DNA of 64,000 bases from Halovivax limisalsi. Its GTDB lineage: Archaea > Halobacteriota > Halobacteria > Halobacteriales > Natrialbaceae. Position numbers and translations under genes: made by a program. Positions within the stretch are counted from its first letter, which is position 1. Each line of letters opens with the position of its first letter. Location: NCBI RefSeq assembly GCF_023093535.1, contig NZ_CP095757.1:1488001-1552000 (forward strand). The letters run 5' to 3'. Shown here piece after piece: positions 2,688-13,041 of the stretch. The notes below the pieces were generated by a model. It saw only the letters and a list, made by a program, of their open reading frames with translations. It did not search any database and was not told the DNA's origin.

Positions 2688-4718
2688 TCAGACGAACGGG
2701 TAGAACGGGTCTCGATCGGGCTGCCAGTGGACCTCGCCGTCGACGATGGGGATGATGCCCTCCGCGGCGACGACGTTCGAAAACTCCGGGCCCGTGGTCG
2801 TGAACTCGATCGGCTGGGCGCACATCTCGGGCGGATCGTCCTCGAGACCGGAGTGCCAGATGAATCCGGCCTTGGGGATGTACTGAAAGACGCGCACGTC
2901 GAGGCGATCGACGCCGGCGGAGTCGACCGTCGCCGGCGCCGTGTACAGCATGTCGGGCTGGGTGAGCTGGGCGAACGCGTCGCCGAGGGCGCGAAACGCG
3001 GCCGTCTCGTCGGGGCCGCCGGCGTACCGGGTCGCCTGGTCGACGGTGAACCCGCGCGAGAGCAGGCCGAGCAGTCGGTCCCGATCGGCCGGCTCGGGCG
3101 CGTTCGACGACCGATCCCGGGCGATCCCCGCCAGACTCCCCGCCCGGATGCACGACCGGCACGCCTCGAACCCGCCCGGCCCGTCGAGAAACACGAGGCG
3201 CGCGTTCGATCGCTCGATCGTCGACGGATCGAGCGTCCCGTCGTCGCACGCGAACCCGTCCGCGACGTCGCCCACGAAGTGAAGCAAGTCGCCGCCCGTT
3301 TCGAACAGATCTCGCAGGTCGTCGCGGGGGACGTCGGTTCGGACCGTGACGTCCGCGCCGTCCGGCCCGTGTTCCGCGAACAGGTCGGCGCTCGCCCGGG
3401 CGGTCTCGCGTCGACCGTCGTCGGTGCAGACGACCACGACGCGCTCGGCCTCGGTCCACTGTTCGAGGTACCGAGTGGCGCTCTCGTAGGCTTCGAGTAC
3501 CGGGACGAACAGCGACTCGTCGGGCGGTGCGTCCTCGCTCATCCATGCCAGCGCCGCGCCGTGGGGACCGCCGTCGACCGCGCGCGCTGGGACCGATTCG
3601 GGCGCGACTCGACGAGTGCCGTGGGGCCCGTCCGGATCGACCCGGCCGGGGGCGGCGTCGGGGAGCATGACGATCGACTGGTTCCGGACGAGGTACGGTA
3701 ACGATTGGACATTTTGATACGTCGGTTCGACGTAACTCACGAAGTGCCATTCGGGGAGCGCCTCGCTCACGCCACCGAAATCCAGCGCCAGACAGGTCTC
3801 GAGTCGCTCGACGTCGGACGCGTCGACGAACGCCGCCGGGTCGAACGAGAGCTGCGAGAGCAGGTCCTGTTCCGCCGGCGAGATCGTCGAGAGCTGGTCG
3901 TAGCGGACGAGGCTGTCGACGAGAAAGACGCGACGGAGCAGCGCGGCCACCTCGTACTGGTAGGCGGGAAGCGAACCGAGGTCGACGACGGACTCGCCGT
4001 CGTCGGTTCGGATCCGCCCGCCGTCGACGGCTTCGGTCACGACTCGACACCCCAGATAGTACGACAGCGGCGCCGCCGGGAGGAGATAGCCGAGGGACTG
4101 CGGCACGACGAGTTCGAGCCCGGTCTCCGGGACGTGGCTCTCGACGGCCTCGGGAATATCGACGCGGTCGTCGAACGCCACGCGCGGCGGGTGGCGCTGG
4201 CTGGCGTTCGCGGAGCGCCGCGGCGTGGTATCGCGGACCGACGAGGAAAACTGCGAGATCGCGGTGGCGACGCCCTCGATCGTCTCCGGGACGGTGACGG
4301 TGTGTCGGGGATACGTGACGCTACTCTCGAACCCGAGCGTGACCGGCGTCGGCTGCTCGAACGAGAGTTCGAGGAGTCCGTCGTCGAAGGTGATCCGGGC
4401 CGGCCCGTCGAACCGAACCCGAACGTTGACCGGTGATTCGACCGACAGGAGCGACGACGAGTGGGTCGGCTCGATCGCGTCCATTCCCTCTTCGATCGGC
4501 TGCCGATCGCGAATCGAGTCCTCCTCCAGCCCGGCCAGCTGGGCGAAGCTCGCGGATGTCGACAGCGTCGTCACGCGACCGGCGATTCGTCCGTCGACCT
4601 GCATCGGGAAGGAGTGTGCGGGGGCGATCTCGTCCCACCCGATCGTCTCGACCTCGAGGACGTTGTCGACGCGGTCGGTCGCGCGGATCGTCGTGTCGAT
4701 CACCTCGATCGCGACCAT
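2688..4718 (-). CDS. Large protein with degenerate CHAT-like C-terminal region, paralogue A
   Basis: A 676-residue soluble protein, no signal or membrane segment. Function unknown. Residues about 425-595 look like the CHAT (caspase/separase-like) fold: a beta strand ending LLHFVGDV (478-485), an acidic DGTLD turn (493-497), strand RLVFLDGP (507-514), then an AG-SLAGIA helix-strand and a helix ending in TRYA. In active CHAT proteins these two strands end in the catalytic His (usually GH) and Cys (usually NAC). Here the positions read GD and DGP, so protease activity is not expected. The N-terminal 60 residues and the C-terminal 65 residues are the parts best conserved with the neighbour at 4840-6867. 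A gtatac box at 4741-4746 lies 23 nt before the ATG. The CHAT assignment is my reading of motifs, not a search result. Confidence 0.6.
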   Translation of the reverse strand: MVAIEVIDTTIRATDRVDNVLEVETIGWDEIAPAHSFPMQVDGRIAGRVTTLSTSASFAQLAGLEEDSIRDRQPIEEGMDAIEPTHSSSLLSVESPVNVRVRFDGPARITFDDGLLELSFEQPTPVTLGFESSVTYPRHTVTVPETIEGVATAISQFSSSVRDTTPRRSANASQRHPPRVAFDDRVDIPEAVESHVPETGLELVVPQSLGYLLPAAPLSYYLGCRVVTEAVDGGRIRTDDGESVVDLGSLPAYQYEVAALLRRVFLVDSLVRYDQLSTISPAEQDLLSQLSFDPAAFVDASDVERLETCLALDFGGVSEALPEWHFVSYVEPTYQNVQSLPYLVRNQSIVMLPDAAPGRVDPDGPHGTRRVAPESVPARAVDGGPHGAALAWMSEDAPPDESLFVPVLEAYESATRYLEQWTEAERVVVVCTDDGRRETARASADLFAEHGPDGADVTVRTDVPRDDLRDLFETGGDLLHFVGDVADGFACDDGTLDPSTIERSNARLVFLDGPGGFEACRSCIRAGSLAGIARDRSSNAPEPADRDRLLGLLSRGFTVDQATRYAGGPDETAAFRALGDAFAQLTQPDMLYTAPATVDSAGVDRLDVRVFQYIPKAGFIWHSGLEDDPPEMCAQPIEFTTTGPEFSNVVAAEGIIPIVDGEVHWQPDRDPFYPFV

Positions 4719-4839
4719 GCGCGTCGATGGCGTTCGACCAGTATACGTCTGCTGGCTTTCGGGTGGCCACGGCCGCCCTCGTGGCTGGTCCCGGATGGCG
4801 GCGTAGACAGCGGAGATAGCCTGAGAATGCCGTCGATCC

Positions 4840-6867
4840 CTACACGAACGGATAGAACGGTTCGTCAGCGACGGTCCACCGGATCTCGCCGTCGACGATC
4901 GGAATGATGTCCTCGGACGCGACGAGGCCCGCGAGCTGGGTGCCCGTCGTCGTGAACTCGAACGGCTGCGCGCACAACCTCGCCGGGACGTCCTCCACCC
5001 CGGGTCGCCAGATGAAACCCGCCTTGGGTATGTACTGGTGAGCGCACACCCGGAATCGGTCGACGCCCAGGGATTCGACCGTCGCCAGCGTACAGTAAAG
5101 CTTCATCGACTGGGTTACCTGGACGACCGCGTCGCCGAGGGCGCGAAACGGCGTGCCCGGCGTCGGCCCGGGCGCGTACCTGACCGCTTCGTCGATCGTA
5201 CAGCCGCGCGCGAGCAACCCGAAGAGCTGCGTCCTGGCTGCCCTATCGGCCGCAGCCGTCGATCCGTCGCGGACGATGCCGGCCACGCTCCCGTTCTGGA
5301 CGCAGGCGCGTCCCGTCTCGAAACCATCAGGGCCGTCGAGGAAGACGACGCGGGCGTTCGACCGGCCGACGTCGGTCGGGTCGAGCACTCCGTCGGCACA
5401 CGCGATCCCACCCTCGACGTCGCCGACGACGTGGAGCAGGTCGACGTCGGCCTCGAACAGATCGCGAAGCTCGGCGCGCGTGAGCCCGTGATGGACGTCG
5501 ATCGCGAGGGTATCGGGGCCGTATTGGTCCAGCAGCTCGGCGCCCAGCTGGGCGGCCGATCGGCGATCGTCGTCGGTACAGACGACGACCACCCGATCCG
5601 TCTCGGGTTGGCGATCGAGATAGCGCGTCGCCGATTCGTAGCTCTCGACGGTCGGCACGTACAGGGTCTCGTCGGGCGGGTCGTCCTCGCCCAGCCAGGC
5701 CAGCGCCGCGCCGTGCGGTCCGCCGTCGAGTGCACGCGCCGGCATCGCCGCGTGGCGCGTTCGGTGGGTCTCGTGGGCGCCGTCTCGCTCTCGGCCGGGA
5801 GCGGCGTCGGGGAGCATGACGGCCGAGAGGTCCCGAACCAGGTACGGCAGTCCTCGCGCGTGCGCCAACGTCGGCTCGACGAAGCTCACGGCGTGCCACT
5901 CCGGGAGCGCGCGACTCACCCGGTCGAACTCGAGGCCGAGGCACGTTCGAACGCGCTCGATATCCGAGGCCTCGACGTAGGCCGCCGGGTCGAACGAGAG
6001 CTGATCGACCAGGGGTAGCTCGGCCGGATCGGCGCTGGCCACCTGGTCGTACCGGACCAGACACTCGATCAGGAAGACCCGACGGAGCAACCGGGCGATC
6101 TCGTACTGATAGGCGGGGAGGGCCCCGAGTTCGGCGAGCACGTCGCCCTCGTCCGTCCGAAGGTGCGCCCTGTCGCCCGCCTCGACCACGACGCGAGCGC
6201 CGAGATAGTACGCGAGCGGGGCCGCCGGAAAGAGGAACGCGAGCTCATCGGGGACGACGAGTTCGAGCCCGGTCTCGGCGACGTTCGTCCTGACCGCTTC
6301 CGGGACGTCGTAGCCGTCGCCGTAGGTCAGCCGCGGCGGATGGCGCCGGTTGGGATCGGCCGATCGATGGGGTGCGTCCTGCCGAACCGCGGACGAAAAG
6401 TACGAGATCGCGGCGGCGACGCCGTCGGTCGTTCGCGGAACGGTGACGGTGTGGCGCGGGTAGGACACGCGGCTCTCGAACCCGACCGTCACCGGGGTCG
6501 GCTGCTCGAACGAGATGGTAACCGACCCCTCGTCCTCGAAGTCGATGGTGCCCGGTCGGTCGAACCGAACGGAGACCGAGATCACCCCTTCGCCCAACAG
6601 CACCGCGCGATCGGCACACTCCATCGGCGTCTCCTCCGGATGGATCGGCTGTGGACGACCGAGTTCACCGTCTTCGTACGTGTTGATCTGCGCGAAACTG
6701 GCCGGAACCGTGATCGCCGTCACGCGTCCGCCGATTCGGCCGTCGACCTGTTTCGAGAAGGCGTGTGCGGGGGCGATCTCGTCCCACCCGACCGTCTCGA
6801 CCTCGACGACGTTGTCGACGCGGTCGGTCGCGCGGATCGTCGTGTCGATCACCTCGATCGCGACCAT
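4840..6867 (-). CDS. Large protein with degenerate CHAT-like C-terminal region, paralogue B
   Basis: A 675-residue tandem paralogue of the gene at 2688-4718, similar over its whole length and 121 bp upstream of it in the same direction. The CHAT-like part again has LLHVVGDV and RVVFLDGP in place of the catalytic His and Cys strands, so the loss of the dyad is shared by both copies and predates or accompanies the duplication. A cysteine a few residues further on (RAC here, RSC in the other copy) is conserved but is out of register with the usual nucleophile. The C-terminus (GFIWRPGVEDVP to FYPFV) is strongly conserved. A gtatac box at 6890-6895 is placed 23 nt before the ATG, exactly as in paralogue A. 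Role unknown; regulation or binding rather than proteolysis is my inference. Confidence 0.6.
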   Translation of the reverse strand: MVAIEVIDTTIRATDRVDNVVEVETVGWDEIAPAHAFSKQVDGRIGGRVTAITVPASFAQINTYEDGELGRPQPIHPEETPMECADRAVLLGEGVISVSVRFDRPGTIDFEDEGSVTISFEQPTPVTVGFESRVSYPRHTVTVPRTTDGVAAAISYFSSAVRQDAPHRSADPNRRHPPRLTYGDGYDVPEAVRTNVAETGLELVVPDELAFLFPAAPLAYYLGARVVVEAGDRAHLRTDEGDVLAELGALPAYQYEIARLLRRVFLIECLVRYDQVASADPAELPLVDQLSFDPAAYVEASDIERVRTCLGLEFDRVSRALPEWHAVSFVEPTLAHARGLPYLVRDLSAVMLPDAAPGRERDGAHETHRTRHAAMPARALDGGPHGAALAWLGEDDPPDETLYVPTVESYESATRYLDRQPETDRVVVVCTDDDRRSAAQLGAELLDQYGPDTLAIDVHHGLTRAELRDLFEADVDLLHVVGDVEGGIACADGVLDPTDVGRSNARVVFLDGPDGFETGRACVQNGSVAGIVRDGSTAAADRAARTQLFGLLARGCTIDEAVRYAPGPTPGTPFRALGDAVVQVTQSMKLYCTLATVESLGVDRFRVCAHQYIPKAGFIWRPGVEDVPARLCAQPFEFTTTGTQLAGLVASEDIIPIVDGEIRWTVADEPFYPFV

Positions 6868-6977: not shown

Positions 6978-9287
6978 CTATCGCGAGCGCCTCGGCTCCG
7001 GCGTCCGATCGGACGCGTCGACGTCGTCGTCCGAATCGGCCGTCTCCGGCGCGGCCGCCCCGTCAGCGGCCGGATCCAGGCGGAGTTCGAAGCGAGCGCC
7101 GCCGCTCCCGCTGTCGGCCACCGCGACGTCCCAGCCGTGGCCCTCGGCGACCTGGGTCACGATGGAGAGGCCGAAGCCGGTGCCGCCCTCGCCCTTCGCC
7201 GTGGAGACGCCCATCTCGAGGATCTCGTCTTTCAGATCGTCCGGGACGCCGGGGCCGTCGTCGGCGACGTAGACGCCGCCGTCGAACGTCCCGACGTCGA
7301 CGGAGACCGTGTCGCCGCCGTGGAGGACGGCGTTGCGGAACAGGTTCTCGAAGAGCTGGCGCGCCCGCGCCCGATCGGCCTGGACGTCCGGCAGCGAATC
7401 GACCGAGAGCGTCCCGTCGGCCGTGTCGACGCCGTCCCACGCCTGTCGGACGACGTCTTCGAGCGCGACGGGTTCGAGCTCCCCGATGGCTTCGCCTTCG
7501 CGCGCGAGCGTCAGGAGGTCCTCGATCATCCTGTGCATGCGATCGAGTTCCTCCCCCACGACGTCGAGGTGCTTGAGGTCGCCGGTGTCGATGGCGGTGT
7601 CGAGGTAGCCCTCGGCGACCGACAGCGGATTGCGCAGGTCGTGACTGACGATCGAGGCGAACGTATCGAGGCGCTCGTTCTGGCGTTCGAGTTCGCGCTC
7701 GCGCTCGACGAGCGTCGAGATATCGGTGTAGATGAAGTAGCCGCGCTGGCGATCGTCGTCGGACTGGACCGGAACGCTCCTGAGCAGGAACGGGGCGGTG
7801 CCGTGAATCGTCCGCCGGGTGACCTCCGCGTCGACCCGATCGCCGTCCTCGACGGCCTCGTACAGCGACGCGGCGTCCTCGTCCGCCTCGGCCGGGACGA
7901 GCAGATCCCGCACTGATTCGCCGACGGCGTCCTCGGGCTCGAACCCGAACAGCCGGACGAACGCCGAGTTGACCGACTCGATCCGGGGCTCGCCGTCCTC
8001 GAGGACGTACGTGATCGCCGCGTCCGGGATGTTCTGAAACAGCGCGGCGAACCGATCGCGCTCGAGCGTCAGCGCCCCCTCGAACCTGACCCGGGCCATC
8101 GCGTGGGCGGTGTGGACGACCAGCAGTTCCGCGAGCTGGCGATCGATCTCGGAGTAGGCGTCGGGTTCGGTGGCCAGGACCTGGAAGACGCCCGTCTCGC
8201 CCATCGGGATCGAGATCGCGGATCGATACGCCGGGTTGGTCGCCGCGGTCGCCGACTCCTCGTGGACGTCGTCGACAACGATCGTCCGGTCCTCCGCGAC
8301 CGTCCGCCCGGCGATCCCGTCAGCCGTGGAGAGCGGCCCCGCGTCGGCGTAGGGCTCGGCGGCCGTCGCCGCCAGCACCTCGAACGTCTCGCCCTCGGCG
8401 TCTGCGATGACGCACGCCTCGAAATCGAGCAGGTCCGAGACGCGTTCGACGACGTACTCGCAGACGCGCTCGACGTCGTCGTCGTGGGCGTCGAGTTCGC
8501 GACTGATCGCCCGGAGTCGATCGATCCGCTCGCGGGTGTCCAGTCGATCGTCCGACTTCGCCTCGACGCCGGTGACCGGTTCGATCCTGACGAGGCCGTA
8601 GGGCGACCCCGGCAGCGGCCGCGTTCGAACGCGAACCGGCCGGTCGTCGATCACGAACTCCGCCGATCGTTCCTCGCCCGACAGCGCGTCCGCGTACGCC
8701 GCTCGAACGTACGGTTCGACGCTCGGATCGATCGACGCGCCGACGAGGGTCCGTCCCTCGAGCGTTGCCGGGTCCAGTCCGTCGGTCAGGGCGGTCCCGA
8801 CGACGGTGACGTGGCGGTAGTCCGCGTCGAAGACGCCGAGTACGGCGTCCTCGTCCTCGAGGAGCGCGGCGAGCGCCCCGACGTGGGCAGTCCGACCGTC
8901 ACCATCGGCGTCCCGGTCGGCTCCGTCGGTTCGATCGAGCGCCGCGGCGATGCGACGGTCGAGCAGTGCCGCCGTCGTCGCCGAGTCGGCCGCGAGAGTG
9001 AGACAGTCGGTCGCACCGGCCTCGAGGGCCTCGTCCGGTCGCGTTTCGTCGTCCAGCAGCGCGATGATGGGAACAGACCGGTCGGCCGAGCGGACCGCTT
9101 CGATCGCGTCCGACGACGTGGACGGACCGGTAACGACGACGTCGACCGCTCCGTCGGAGAGCCGCGCGGTGACCGCCTCCGGACTCGACGCCGACTCGAT
9201 CGACCGCGTCGGCGATCGAAGCGAGTCGAACAGGTCCTCGCGCGTCCGGGAGCCGTCGAGGAATATCCCGGAGACGTGACGGCTCAT
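6978..9287 (-). CDS. PAS/GAF sensor histidine kinase with degenerate receiver-like N-terminus
   Basis: A soluble multi-domain kinase of 769 residues. In order: a receiver-like domain (about 5-120) in which the strand that should carry the phospho-acceptor Asp reads DVVVTGPS; a PAS-like region (about 140-240); a GAF-like domain (about 265-405); a second PAS domain (about 410-530); then the kinase core with the H box SIVSHDLRNPL (His about 549), N box LFENLFRNAVLHGG, and G boxes DDGPGVP and GGTGFGLSIV. It would autophosphorylate the His and pass phosphate to a separate response regulator, none of which is adjacent. ATG 9287 was preferred over GTG 9311 because a TATA-like ttta lies about 28 nt before it. 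No membrane segment, so the signal is likely intracellular. Confidence 0.9.
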   Translation of the reverse strand: MSRHVSGIFLDGSRTREDLFDSLRSPTRSIESASSPEAVTARLSDGAVDVVVTGPSTSSDAIEAVRSADRSVPIIALLDDETRPDEALEAGATDCLTLAADSATTAALLDRRIAAALDRTDGADRDADGDGRTAHVGALAALLEDEDAVLGVFDADYRHVTVVGTALTDGLDPATLEGRTLVGASIDPSVEPYVRAAYADALSGEERSAEFVIDDRPVRVRTRPLPGSPYGLVRIEPVTGVEAKSDDRLDTRERIDRLRAISRELDAHDDDVERVCEYVVERVSDLLDFEACVIADAEGETFEVLAATAAEPYADAGPLSTADGIAGRTVAEDRTIVVDDVHEESATAATNPAYRSAISIPMGETGVFQVLATEPDAYSEIDRQLAELLVVHTAHAMARVRFEGALTLERDRFAALFQNIPDAAITYVLEDGEPRIESVNSAFVRLFGFEPEDAVGESVRDLLVPAEADEDAASLYEAVEDGDRVDAEVTRRTIHGTAPFLLRSVPVQSDDDRQRGYFIYTDISTLVERERELERQNERLDTFASIVSHDLRNPLSVAEGYLDTAIDTGDLKHLDVVGEELDRMHRMIEDLLTLAREGEAIGELEPVALEDVVRQAWDGVDTADGTLSVDSLPDVQADRARARQLFENLFRNAVLHGGDTVSVDVGTFDGGVYVADDGPGVPDDLKDEILEMGVSTAKGEGGTGFGLSIVTQVAEGHGWDVAVADSGSGGARFELRLDPAADGAAAPETADSDDDVDASDRTPEPRRSR

Positions 9288-11835: not shown

Positions 11836-13041
11836 TCAGTCGAACAGCGATTCGACCGACTGCACGTTGACGCCCAGAAGCAACGGCACGTCAGACGGCG
11901 ACTGGAAGTGCACTTCCATGTGTCCCTGGGCGTCGAAGCTCGTGGACGTCTTGACGCGATCGGAGCTGGACGTTCGGTAGAAGGGCCACAGCCCCTTCTT
12001 CTCGTAGTCCTTGATCTCGGATTGCTGTTCCGCGGAGTAGGACGCGTCCGAGGTGATCGTCACGTCGACGCCCGCGGTGACGACGAGGTCGGTGACGAGA
12101 CGCTGCATCGCCCCGTCGTCGCCGAAGAGTTCGTCCCAGGTCGCGTAGCCGTCGCCCGTCCGCCAGACGCTCTCTTCGTGCTTGAGAGCCAGTTCGAGCG
12201 CGGCGGCATTGTACCACCCGCCGGCCGTGATCGGGACGGTCACGACGCTGTCGAAGGAGGCGTTTGCCTGCACCCGAGACTCGCTAAACGTCTTCGACAG
12301 GTGGTGTTCCGAGTGCCGGTCGACGATCAGTCCCAAGATGTCCTTGCCGGAGGAGGACCAGCAGTCCTTCGTGCTACCGCTTTGTTCCTCGCTGTCGAAC
12401 GTGAACGAGTAGCTCGACCCGTCAGCGAGTTTCGACCTGATCTCGTCGTACGTGTCCGAGTATTTCGGCGTTCCGGAGTCGGCGTCACCGTTCTCGTAGT
12501 AGTGCGGGTTTCTGAGCGACTGTAGCGCCGTCATGATCGGGCTGGTCTGCATCGTCTGCCGGAACGCCTCGACGGCGTTGGTCTGCGTCGAGCCGACGAG
12601 GTTCAGCGTGGCCCACCGCTCGAACGTGGTGACGGGGTCTTTGAAGTAGGCGTGCCGGTGTTTCTGCTGGTACTGCTTCCAGCTTTTGACGTCGTCCTCG
12701 GTGACGTACTCCGTCCAGTCCGTCTCGTCGGGTTTGAGGCTGTAGAGCAGACGGTTTCGGTACAGGTCGTAGAAACTGTCGTAGCCCGACTGAGTGAAGA
12801 CCTGCGTCGTACTTTCCGGCGGGATGCCGTCGGCCGTCGCCCACAGGTCAGCGGTCGCTTCGATCGGCTCCGACGCTTCCACGATCTGGAACGACTGCTC
12901 GTCCAGTTCGAGCCCGGTCGTCAGCGCGTTGTACCACTTGTTCTGTAACTGTTCCAACGGATCGGCCGCGGATTGGGTTGGTGTGCTCATTGTCTCTTCG
13001 GGTGATGACACCGCAATCACCCGGTCCACGCTCCCACACAT
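11836..13041 (-). CDS. Hypothetical protein, 401 residues, AT-rich promoter
   Basis: I do not recognise this protein. It is soluble, without signal or membrane helix, less acidic than its neighbours, rich in Ser/Thr and aromatic residues. The N-terminal half looks helical; the C-terminal half (SYSFTF, SFDSVVTVPITAGGWYN, VDVTITSDASYS, HMEVHFQS) alternates like beta strands. The ATG at 13041 is supported by TTATAAA at 13064-13070 on the minus strand, 23-29 nt upstream; an internal ATG at 12990 is a second possibility. The gene is flanked by an exceptionally AT-rich promoter in a GC-rich chromosome, a hint of acquisition or of unusual regulation. No obvious functional partner beside it. Confidence 0.7.
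   Translation of the reverse strand: MCGSVDRVIAVSSPEETMSTPTQSAADPLEQLQNKWYNALTTGLELDEQSFQIVEASEPIEATADLWATADGIPPESTTQVFTQSGYDSFYDLYRNRLLYSLKPDETDWTEYVTEDDVKSWKQYQQKHRHAYFKDPVTTFERWATLNLVGSTQTNAVEAFRQTMQTSPIMTALQSLRNPHYYENGDADSGTPKYSDTYDEIRSKLADGSSYSFTFDSEEQSGSTKDCWSSSGKDILGLIVDRHSEHHLSKTFSESRVQANASFDSVVTVPITAGGWYNAAALELALKHEESVWRTGDGYATWDELFGDDGAMQRLVTDLVVTAGVDVTITSDASYSAEQQSEIKDYEKKGLWPFYRTSSSDRVKTSTSFDAQGHMEVHFQSPSDVPLLLGVNVQSVESLFD

Follow-up and report, generated by a model that had tools for sequence, protein, structure and literature searches.

The 64,000-nucleotide stretch of Halovivax limisalsi DNA analysed here (contig NZ_CP095757.1, positions 1,488,001 to 1,552,000; hereafter the window) carries a tandem pair of genes for CHAT-type proteins, P0001 and P0002, in which both residues of the His-Cys catalytic dyad are replaced, and the pair follows a gene for a sensor histidine kinase on the same strand. 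Both proteins are homologous to CHAT proteins with an intact dyad, fall within a single clade of dyad-less relatives, show nearly one-to-one operon linkage with intact kinases, and have evolved under purifying selection. We consider it probable that they are pseudoproteases repurposed as partners of the histidine kinase, by a mechanism that we infer below.

ORF (open reading frame) calls and translation verified both genes on the minus strand, confirming the tandem pair of 676- and 675-residue proteins and the motifs given in a preliminary description of the window. In the direction of transcription the order is kinase (9287-6978), a 110 bp spacer, P0002 (6867-4840), a 121 bp spacer and P0001 (4718-2688). 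The features of the locus are as follows.

2688..4718, minus strand: pseudo-CHAT copy 2 (P0001, 676 amino acids), from ORF, translation, AlphaFold2 model and membership of the kinase-linked clade
2949..3758, minus strand: predicted caspase/CHAT-type domain of P0001, residues ~321-590 including an N-terminal half-sheet, from VIA-align matches
3759..4718, minus strand: N-terminal region of P0001, residues 1-320, beta-rich and then alpha/beta in the AlphaFold2 model; no Pfam, NCBIfam or PADLOC match
3177..3179, minus strand: Pro514 codon of copy 2, catalytic-Cys position (family alignment)
3183..3185, minus strand: Asp512 codon of copy 2, Asn in intact relatives (family alignment)
3267..3269, minus strand: Asp484 codon of copy 2, catalytic-His position (family alignment)
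4840..6867, minus strand: pseudo-CHAT copy 1 (P0002, 675 amino acids), directly behind the kinase, from ORF and the same-strand histidine kinase 110 bp upstream
5329..5331, minus strand: Pro513 codon of copy 1, catalytic-Cys position (pairwise alignment of the copies)
5419..5421, minus strand: Asp483 codon of copy 1, catalytic-His position (pairwise alignment of the copies)
6978..9287, minus strand: linked sensor histidine kinase, 769 amino acids, with receiver-like N-terminus, GAF, PAS, HisKA and HATPase (Pfam; adjacency)
7641..7643, minus strand: codon of the phospho-accepting His549 of the kinase (SHDLRNPL), conserved in 19/19 linked kinases

The two copies are 60.7% identical (409/674), and identity is spread fairly evenly, with 62% in the N-terminal 320 residues and 55% in the CHAT core. 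The C-terminal end of 65 residues, previously described as invariant, does not stand out, being identical at 42 of 65 positions (65%), while the most conserved part is formed by the first 50 residues (88%).

Loss of the catalytic dyad in a CHAT-type fold

The AlphaFold2 model of P0001 has a predicted local distance difference test (pLDDT) score of 81.5 and a predicted template modelling (pTM) score of 0.82, and a caspase-type sheet with its strands and helices spans about residues 321-590. A caspase-like core, which the preliminary description had read from the strand order, is therefore present in the model, at residues ~322-620 when its full C-terminal extent is counted. Comparison by VIA-align matched it to gingipain RgpB (Z 15.3, 3.2 Å, 244 residues), SAVED-CHAT 8tl0 (Z 15.0, 2.7 Å, 166 residues), the anti-sigma factor DdvA (Z 14.8, 215 residues), separase (Z 14.4), Craspase CHAT (11.7) and caspases and paracaspase (about 10), matches which indicate structural likeness and not function. 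The model of an intact relative from Halobium salinum (L038; pLDDT 86.0) gave Z 21.0 to RgpB, 19.0 to SAVED-CHAT and 16.3 to separase. Residues 1-320 were modelled only within full-length P0001, and a missing fold match there carries no meaning. At the level of the predicted fold, P0001 and P0002 belong to the CHAT family.

Profile scans of the two proteins alone in Pfam, NCBIfam and PADLOC gave no match, and PDB sequence searches with P0001, a family profile and a CHAT core profile returned nothing useful. PF12770 was matched at an expect value (E) <=1 by 7 of 31 family members scanned (best E 1.2e-5), the window pair not among them; homology of the pair to CHAT proteins follows from its alignment to relatives that reach this profile. 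The Peptidase_C14 p20 profile had no match in 31 family members scanned, nor did Response_reg in the window pair or the relatives scanned. An E 1.7 match of the beta-rich part to a DUF4465 protein in the PDB sequence search was not significant, and chance Pfam hits of single members (ATP-grasp, Meckelin, others) were disregarded.

The pair reads LHFVGDV/LHVVGDV at the His site and RLVFLDGP/RVVFLDGP at the Cys site. In the family alignment, D484 and P514 of P0001, equivalent to D483 and P513 of P0002, align exactly with the intact residues, His in 'HYIGHC' and Cys in 'FFLNACGS', so that Asp and Pro at the two catalytic positions, previously noted from the motifs, are confirmed against intact relatives. 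An alignment of intact members served for pattern back-translation, the mixed family one being too divergent. Chance does not account for the altered residues, a pattern that returns throughout a 31-member clade. Cys is found at the catalytic position in none of these 31 (0/31), where P, A, Y, N, T, R or S stands instead, and the His position is occupied by Asp (15), Glu (7), Asn (3), Thr (2), Arg (2), Pro (1) and, in L231, His (1). Two residues before the Cys, position 512 is Asn in 147/147 intact sequences, while the 31 clade members have Asp (28) or Glu (3). Conservation of the altered residues had been noted between the two copies; across the clade it holds for the loss of Cys and the gain of Asp or Glu at 512, both found in all 31, but not for Asp at the His site, which is not fixed.

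Ratios of nonsynonymous to synonymous substitution rates (dN/dS, NG86 method) in the CHAT region were 0.14-0.38 in five clade pairs versus 0.05-0.27 in intact pairs. They stayed well under 1 across all domains, with 0.41 between the tandem copies, and conservation in the clade shifts towards the N-terminal region. Judged from these sequence comparisons, the dead CHAT domain is under constraint, weaker than that on the active one. Both the values for the dead domain (0.14-0.38) and the persistence of the clade speak for the earlier suggestion that a non-proteolytic form has been selected.

A dyad-less clade and its linkage to a sensor kinase

Relatives of P0001 are present in 365 of the 391 Halobacteria genomes sampled, and the genome of the window has seven family members, the pair included. 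Four genomes of another family of the same phylum hold one relative each; both of those with a readable active site (2/2) keep His and Cys, and members from this other family were used to root the family tree. Most relatives keep the dyad, as examined in 147 intact sequences, with motifs 'HYIGHC...' and 'FFLNACGS' in group A and 'HYIGHV/I/A...' and 'LNACQS' in group B. Two intact paralogues occur in the window's own genome, L133 (GHC/NACGS) and L134 (GHA/NACQS). RefSeq annotation of relatives on plasmids is mostly 'hypothetical protein', with one 'caspase family protein' and one 'CHAT domain-containing protein'.

The window pair lies within a single clade of dyad-less proteins, with FastTree support of 1.0 in the first tree and 0.999 when active-site columns were masked; all supports quoted are from FastTree, while the IQ-TREE topology was taken without bootstraps. 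In the masked tree, the dyad-less kinase-linked clade is sister to intact group A (0.985). GH/NAC forms, whose place as sisters had been raised as a question, thus exist and form the sister clade. The clade comprises 22 proteins of the first tree and nine added later, 31 in total. Of the 391 genomes, at least 22 contribute members, and most of these are Natrialbaceae; beyond the window, genes were called with a simple script.

The preliminary description had not noticed a kinase partner. A kinase gene on the same strand lies within about 200 bp of 28 of the 31 clade members, and the remaining three are located in tandem arrays beside one. The corresponding numbers in the first set are 19 of 22 (<=200 bp, same strand), again with the other three in tandem arrays beside a kinase. 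Only one of 147 intact relatives and none of 14 other dyad-less relatives have a kinase neighbour (Fisher 5e-21 for the first set, with related loci treated as independent). Linkage counts were identical with a HATPase regular expression, independent of the kinase profile. In a second set, picked regardless of neighbours, a kinase stands beside 9/9 dyad-less Halobacteria loci and 0/5 intact ones. In many genomes the kinase stop and the CHAT start overlap by 4 bp. Most loci have the kinase upstream and a minority have it downstream; gene order switched three or more times on the tree, and adjacency was retained. The kinase of the window has its two nearest paralogues in the same genome next to the two further pseudo-CHAT loci. 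A named example of the module is found on plasmid unnamed2 of Natrononativus amylolyticus, where an 'ATP-binding protein' is followed by a 'hypothetical protein'. Distances among kinases and among pseudo-CHAT proteins are correlated (Mantel r 0.79, with 0/20,000 permutations as high), and the trees agree.

The linked kinases are intact in their catalytic motifs. GAF, PAS, HisKA and HATPase were detected by Pfam in all five kinases scanned, the H, N, G1 and G2 boxes of the window kinase are intact, and the phospho-accepting His is present in 19/19 aligned kinases, which also keep the nucleotide boxes, apart from one gene model whose end is frayed. The receiver-like N-terminus, where present, is without the usual Asp as judged by eye, and the Response_reg profile was reached by one of the five kinases scanned (that of L128, E 1e-4). 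No receiver protein was seen beside linked kinases in the loci examined. The pseudo-CHAT gene and the gene of a catalytically intact kinase make up a conserved operon.

Some additional arrangements were observed in the family. A separate dyad-less set, group C (L135:8817-10991; L204, L206-L212), has LP... and FE.. motifs, is placed elsewhere in the tree and is without a kinase; its member in the window's genome, L135, adjoins a MoxR/VWA chelatase-like gene. Another local array, with three tandem pseudo-CHAT copies and one kinase, is present in a species of the same genus (L130:6601-13540), and intact CHAT genes of group B form tandem arrays of two or three in L195 and L196. Intact group A genes (L133:8977-11187 and 100 similar loci) are located between a divergent serine hydroxymethyltransferase (SHMT) gene and a downstream TbsP-type transcription regulator, both of which are present in 79 loci, with TbsP alone in 13 and SHMT alone in 8. 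A kinase-linked subclade (L136, L137, L205, L228, L230, L231, L234, L236) adjoins a purA-like gene of ~454-460 amino acids, and kinase-linked L123, L124 and L129 are near purS/purQ-like genes. If glyA beside group A is counted, a purine/one-carbon neighbourhood recurs, which may be due to chance. In the window itself, an ORF of 401 amino acids at 11836-13041, in a stretch of lower guanine-cytosine content, had no relatives among the compared neighbourhoods and is possibly a recent insertion. A bacterial promoter scan was uninformative, the host being an archaeon.

A proposed partnership with the kinase and alternative readings

That the dead branch almost always adjoins a kinase gene suggests an old protease turned into a signalling partner. 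The pair belongs to one clade that has lost its Cys, and nearly always its His as well; we propose that this clade became dedicated, as a partner, to a single subfamily of GAF-PAS sensor kinases. Kinase and pseudo-CHAT protein would bind each other and form one signalling unit, in which the latter may serve as the output or a co-regulator of the kinase. Contact with the kinase, a target or both would be made through its conserved N-terminal domain and through the cleft that once bound peptides, which would now hold a partner instead of cutting it. The tandem pair of the window would then provide two partners for one kinase.

Several observations weigh against this partnership. Agreement of the two trees is expected from co-inheritance of neighbours even without contact, and the Fisher value counts related loci as independent; for the latter reason, the order switches, the kinases of the window's own genome and the second batch of loci are the stronger evidence. 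As the pseudo-CHAT protein lacks a receiver domain, any relay from the kinase would require a hypothetical mechanism. Finally, the mean frequency of the top residue is 0.49 in the dead CHAT domain compared to 0.75 in the intact one, which points to looser surface constraints on the dead domain.

Pseudoproteases often act as decoys or regulators of active relatives. By the logic of caspase-8 and c-FLIP, the pair might accordingly regulate intact CHAT paralogues of the same genome, with its state set by the kinase. Such paralogues, L133 and L134, are encoded in the window genome, and the D1 genomes examined hold additional family copies. Intact clade A is, however, present in most genomes with or without the kinase-linked clade, the kinase-linked genes are not adjacent to intact ones, and heterodimers are not a known requirement of CHAT domains; we regard a role of this kind as unlikely, although it fares best among the alternatives.

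Slightly less probable is that the pseudo-CHAT protein is an atypical phospho-acceptor, with the kinase phosphorylating a pocket of Asp512 and Asp/Glu484 in the former active site, receiver-like on a Rossmann-like sheet. The change from Asn to Asp or Glu beside the lost Cys would leave a putative acidic pocket in the alpha/beta sheet. The residue contrast at 512 (147/147 versus 31/31), Asp or Glu at 484 in 22/31, the intact kinases and their receiver-like N-terminus without the usual Asp by eye are in line with this. So is the DSSP assignment for the P0001 model, in which strand 506-512 ends with D512 and strand 476-482 is closely followed by D484. The conserved Lys or Thr/Ser of receivers were nevertheless not identified, and the 512 change may only accompany loss of Cys, since in one alignment acidic residues, often Glu near 512, are likewise common in the separate dyad-less group that lacks a kinase. 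A new two-component output, in which a dead caspase-fold active site would be a phospho-accepting or metal-binding pocket read by a dedicated kinase, is to be considered with equal reserve.

Peptidase activity through other residues is very improbable. Clade members show high conservation of H480, C491 and D580, which could point to a substitute active site, but both canonical positions vary freely there, and no intact His/Cys elsewhere was found that would restore the dyad. All three residues are as conserved in intact relatives that hold the canonical dyad and so look structural; for this reason, an alternative H480/C491 dyad was ruled out as a replacement. The least probable reading, decay of functionless genes kept by linkage, could draw on the relaxed constraint and on a broken copy in a sister species, but was rejected on the dN/dS values, well below 1 over all domains and 0.41 between the copies. 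The full length of the ORFs of 31 proteins, spread over at least 22 genomes, and linkage that survives changes of order also speak against it. The broken copy itself (G361:C1:2245504-2246123) has an internal TGA.

Comparison with known systems

Within one archaeal family of proteins, a natural series is available that consists of active-looking CHAT proteases found almost throughout Halobacteria, outgroup members from another part of the phylum and a dead clade captured by a kinase. Conversion of a protease into a signalling component can therefore be tested in haloarchaea that are open to genetic work. For the strong caspase-like activity reported in Haloferax volcanii, with Archaea described there as without clear gene homologues (PMC3615174), the intact relatives offer candidates. 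A single intact copy was present in 6/6 genomes checked of one genus, tentatively taken as Haloferax, which is to be seen as a lead only. In literature outside subscription journals, we found no papers on CHAT proteins of Halobacteria, and a search combining CHAT domain, histidine kinase and caspase gave a single article, on receiver domains of a Beggiatoa relative.

Among known systems, the pair shares the caspase/separase-type core, in its predicted fold, with CHAT proteases (PF12770: SAVED-CHAT, Craspase TPR-CHAT/Csx29, HetF), and its intact relatives carry His-Cys and reach PF12770. Unlike these proteases, P0001 and P0002 have neither catalytic residue, their N-terminal 320 residues match nothing in Pfam, and a histidine kinase accompanies them. 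HetF, itself a CHAT protein, controls development and division in cyanobacteria and loses its function when the putative active site is mutated (PMC8406250). Gingipains R and K (C25) and separase are among the best fold matches of both P0001 and the intact relative, but they are active enzymes whose N- and C-terminal parts differ, and identity is 10-15%. The transmembrane anti-sigma factor DdvA (PDB 8rw5/8rot) matches the CHAT-like region in structure and is regulatory, not degradative; it differs from the pair in being a bacterial membrane protein, and no sequence match was found.

Bacterial pseudo-orthocaspases are, like the pair, prokaryotic caspase-fold proteins maintained after loss of His-Cys (PMC6426788). 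They are bacterial C14 p20 proteins with mostly Tyr-Ser, whereas the clade described here is archaeal, of CHAT type, mostly with Asp/Glu-Pro, and kinase-linked. The same C14 p20 survey reported an intact dyad in all 93 archaeal sequences and no archaeal pseudo-forms (PMC6426788). Two-component systems are alike in having an intact kinase with HisKA and HATPase beside a partner gene, but here the partner is a pseudoprotease without a receiver domain. The fold and the principle of a pseudoenzyme acting as a regulator are thus known, and what is new is the archaeal, kinase-linked CHAT setting.

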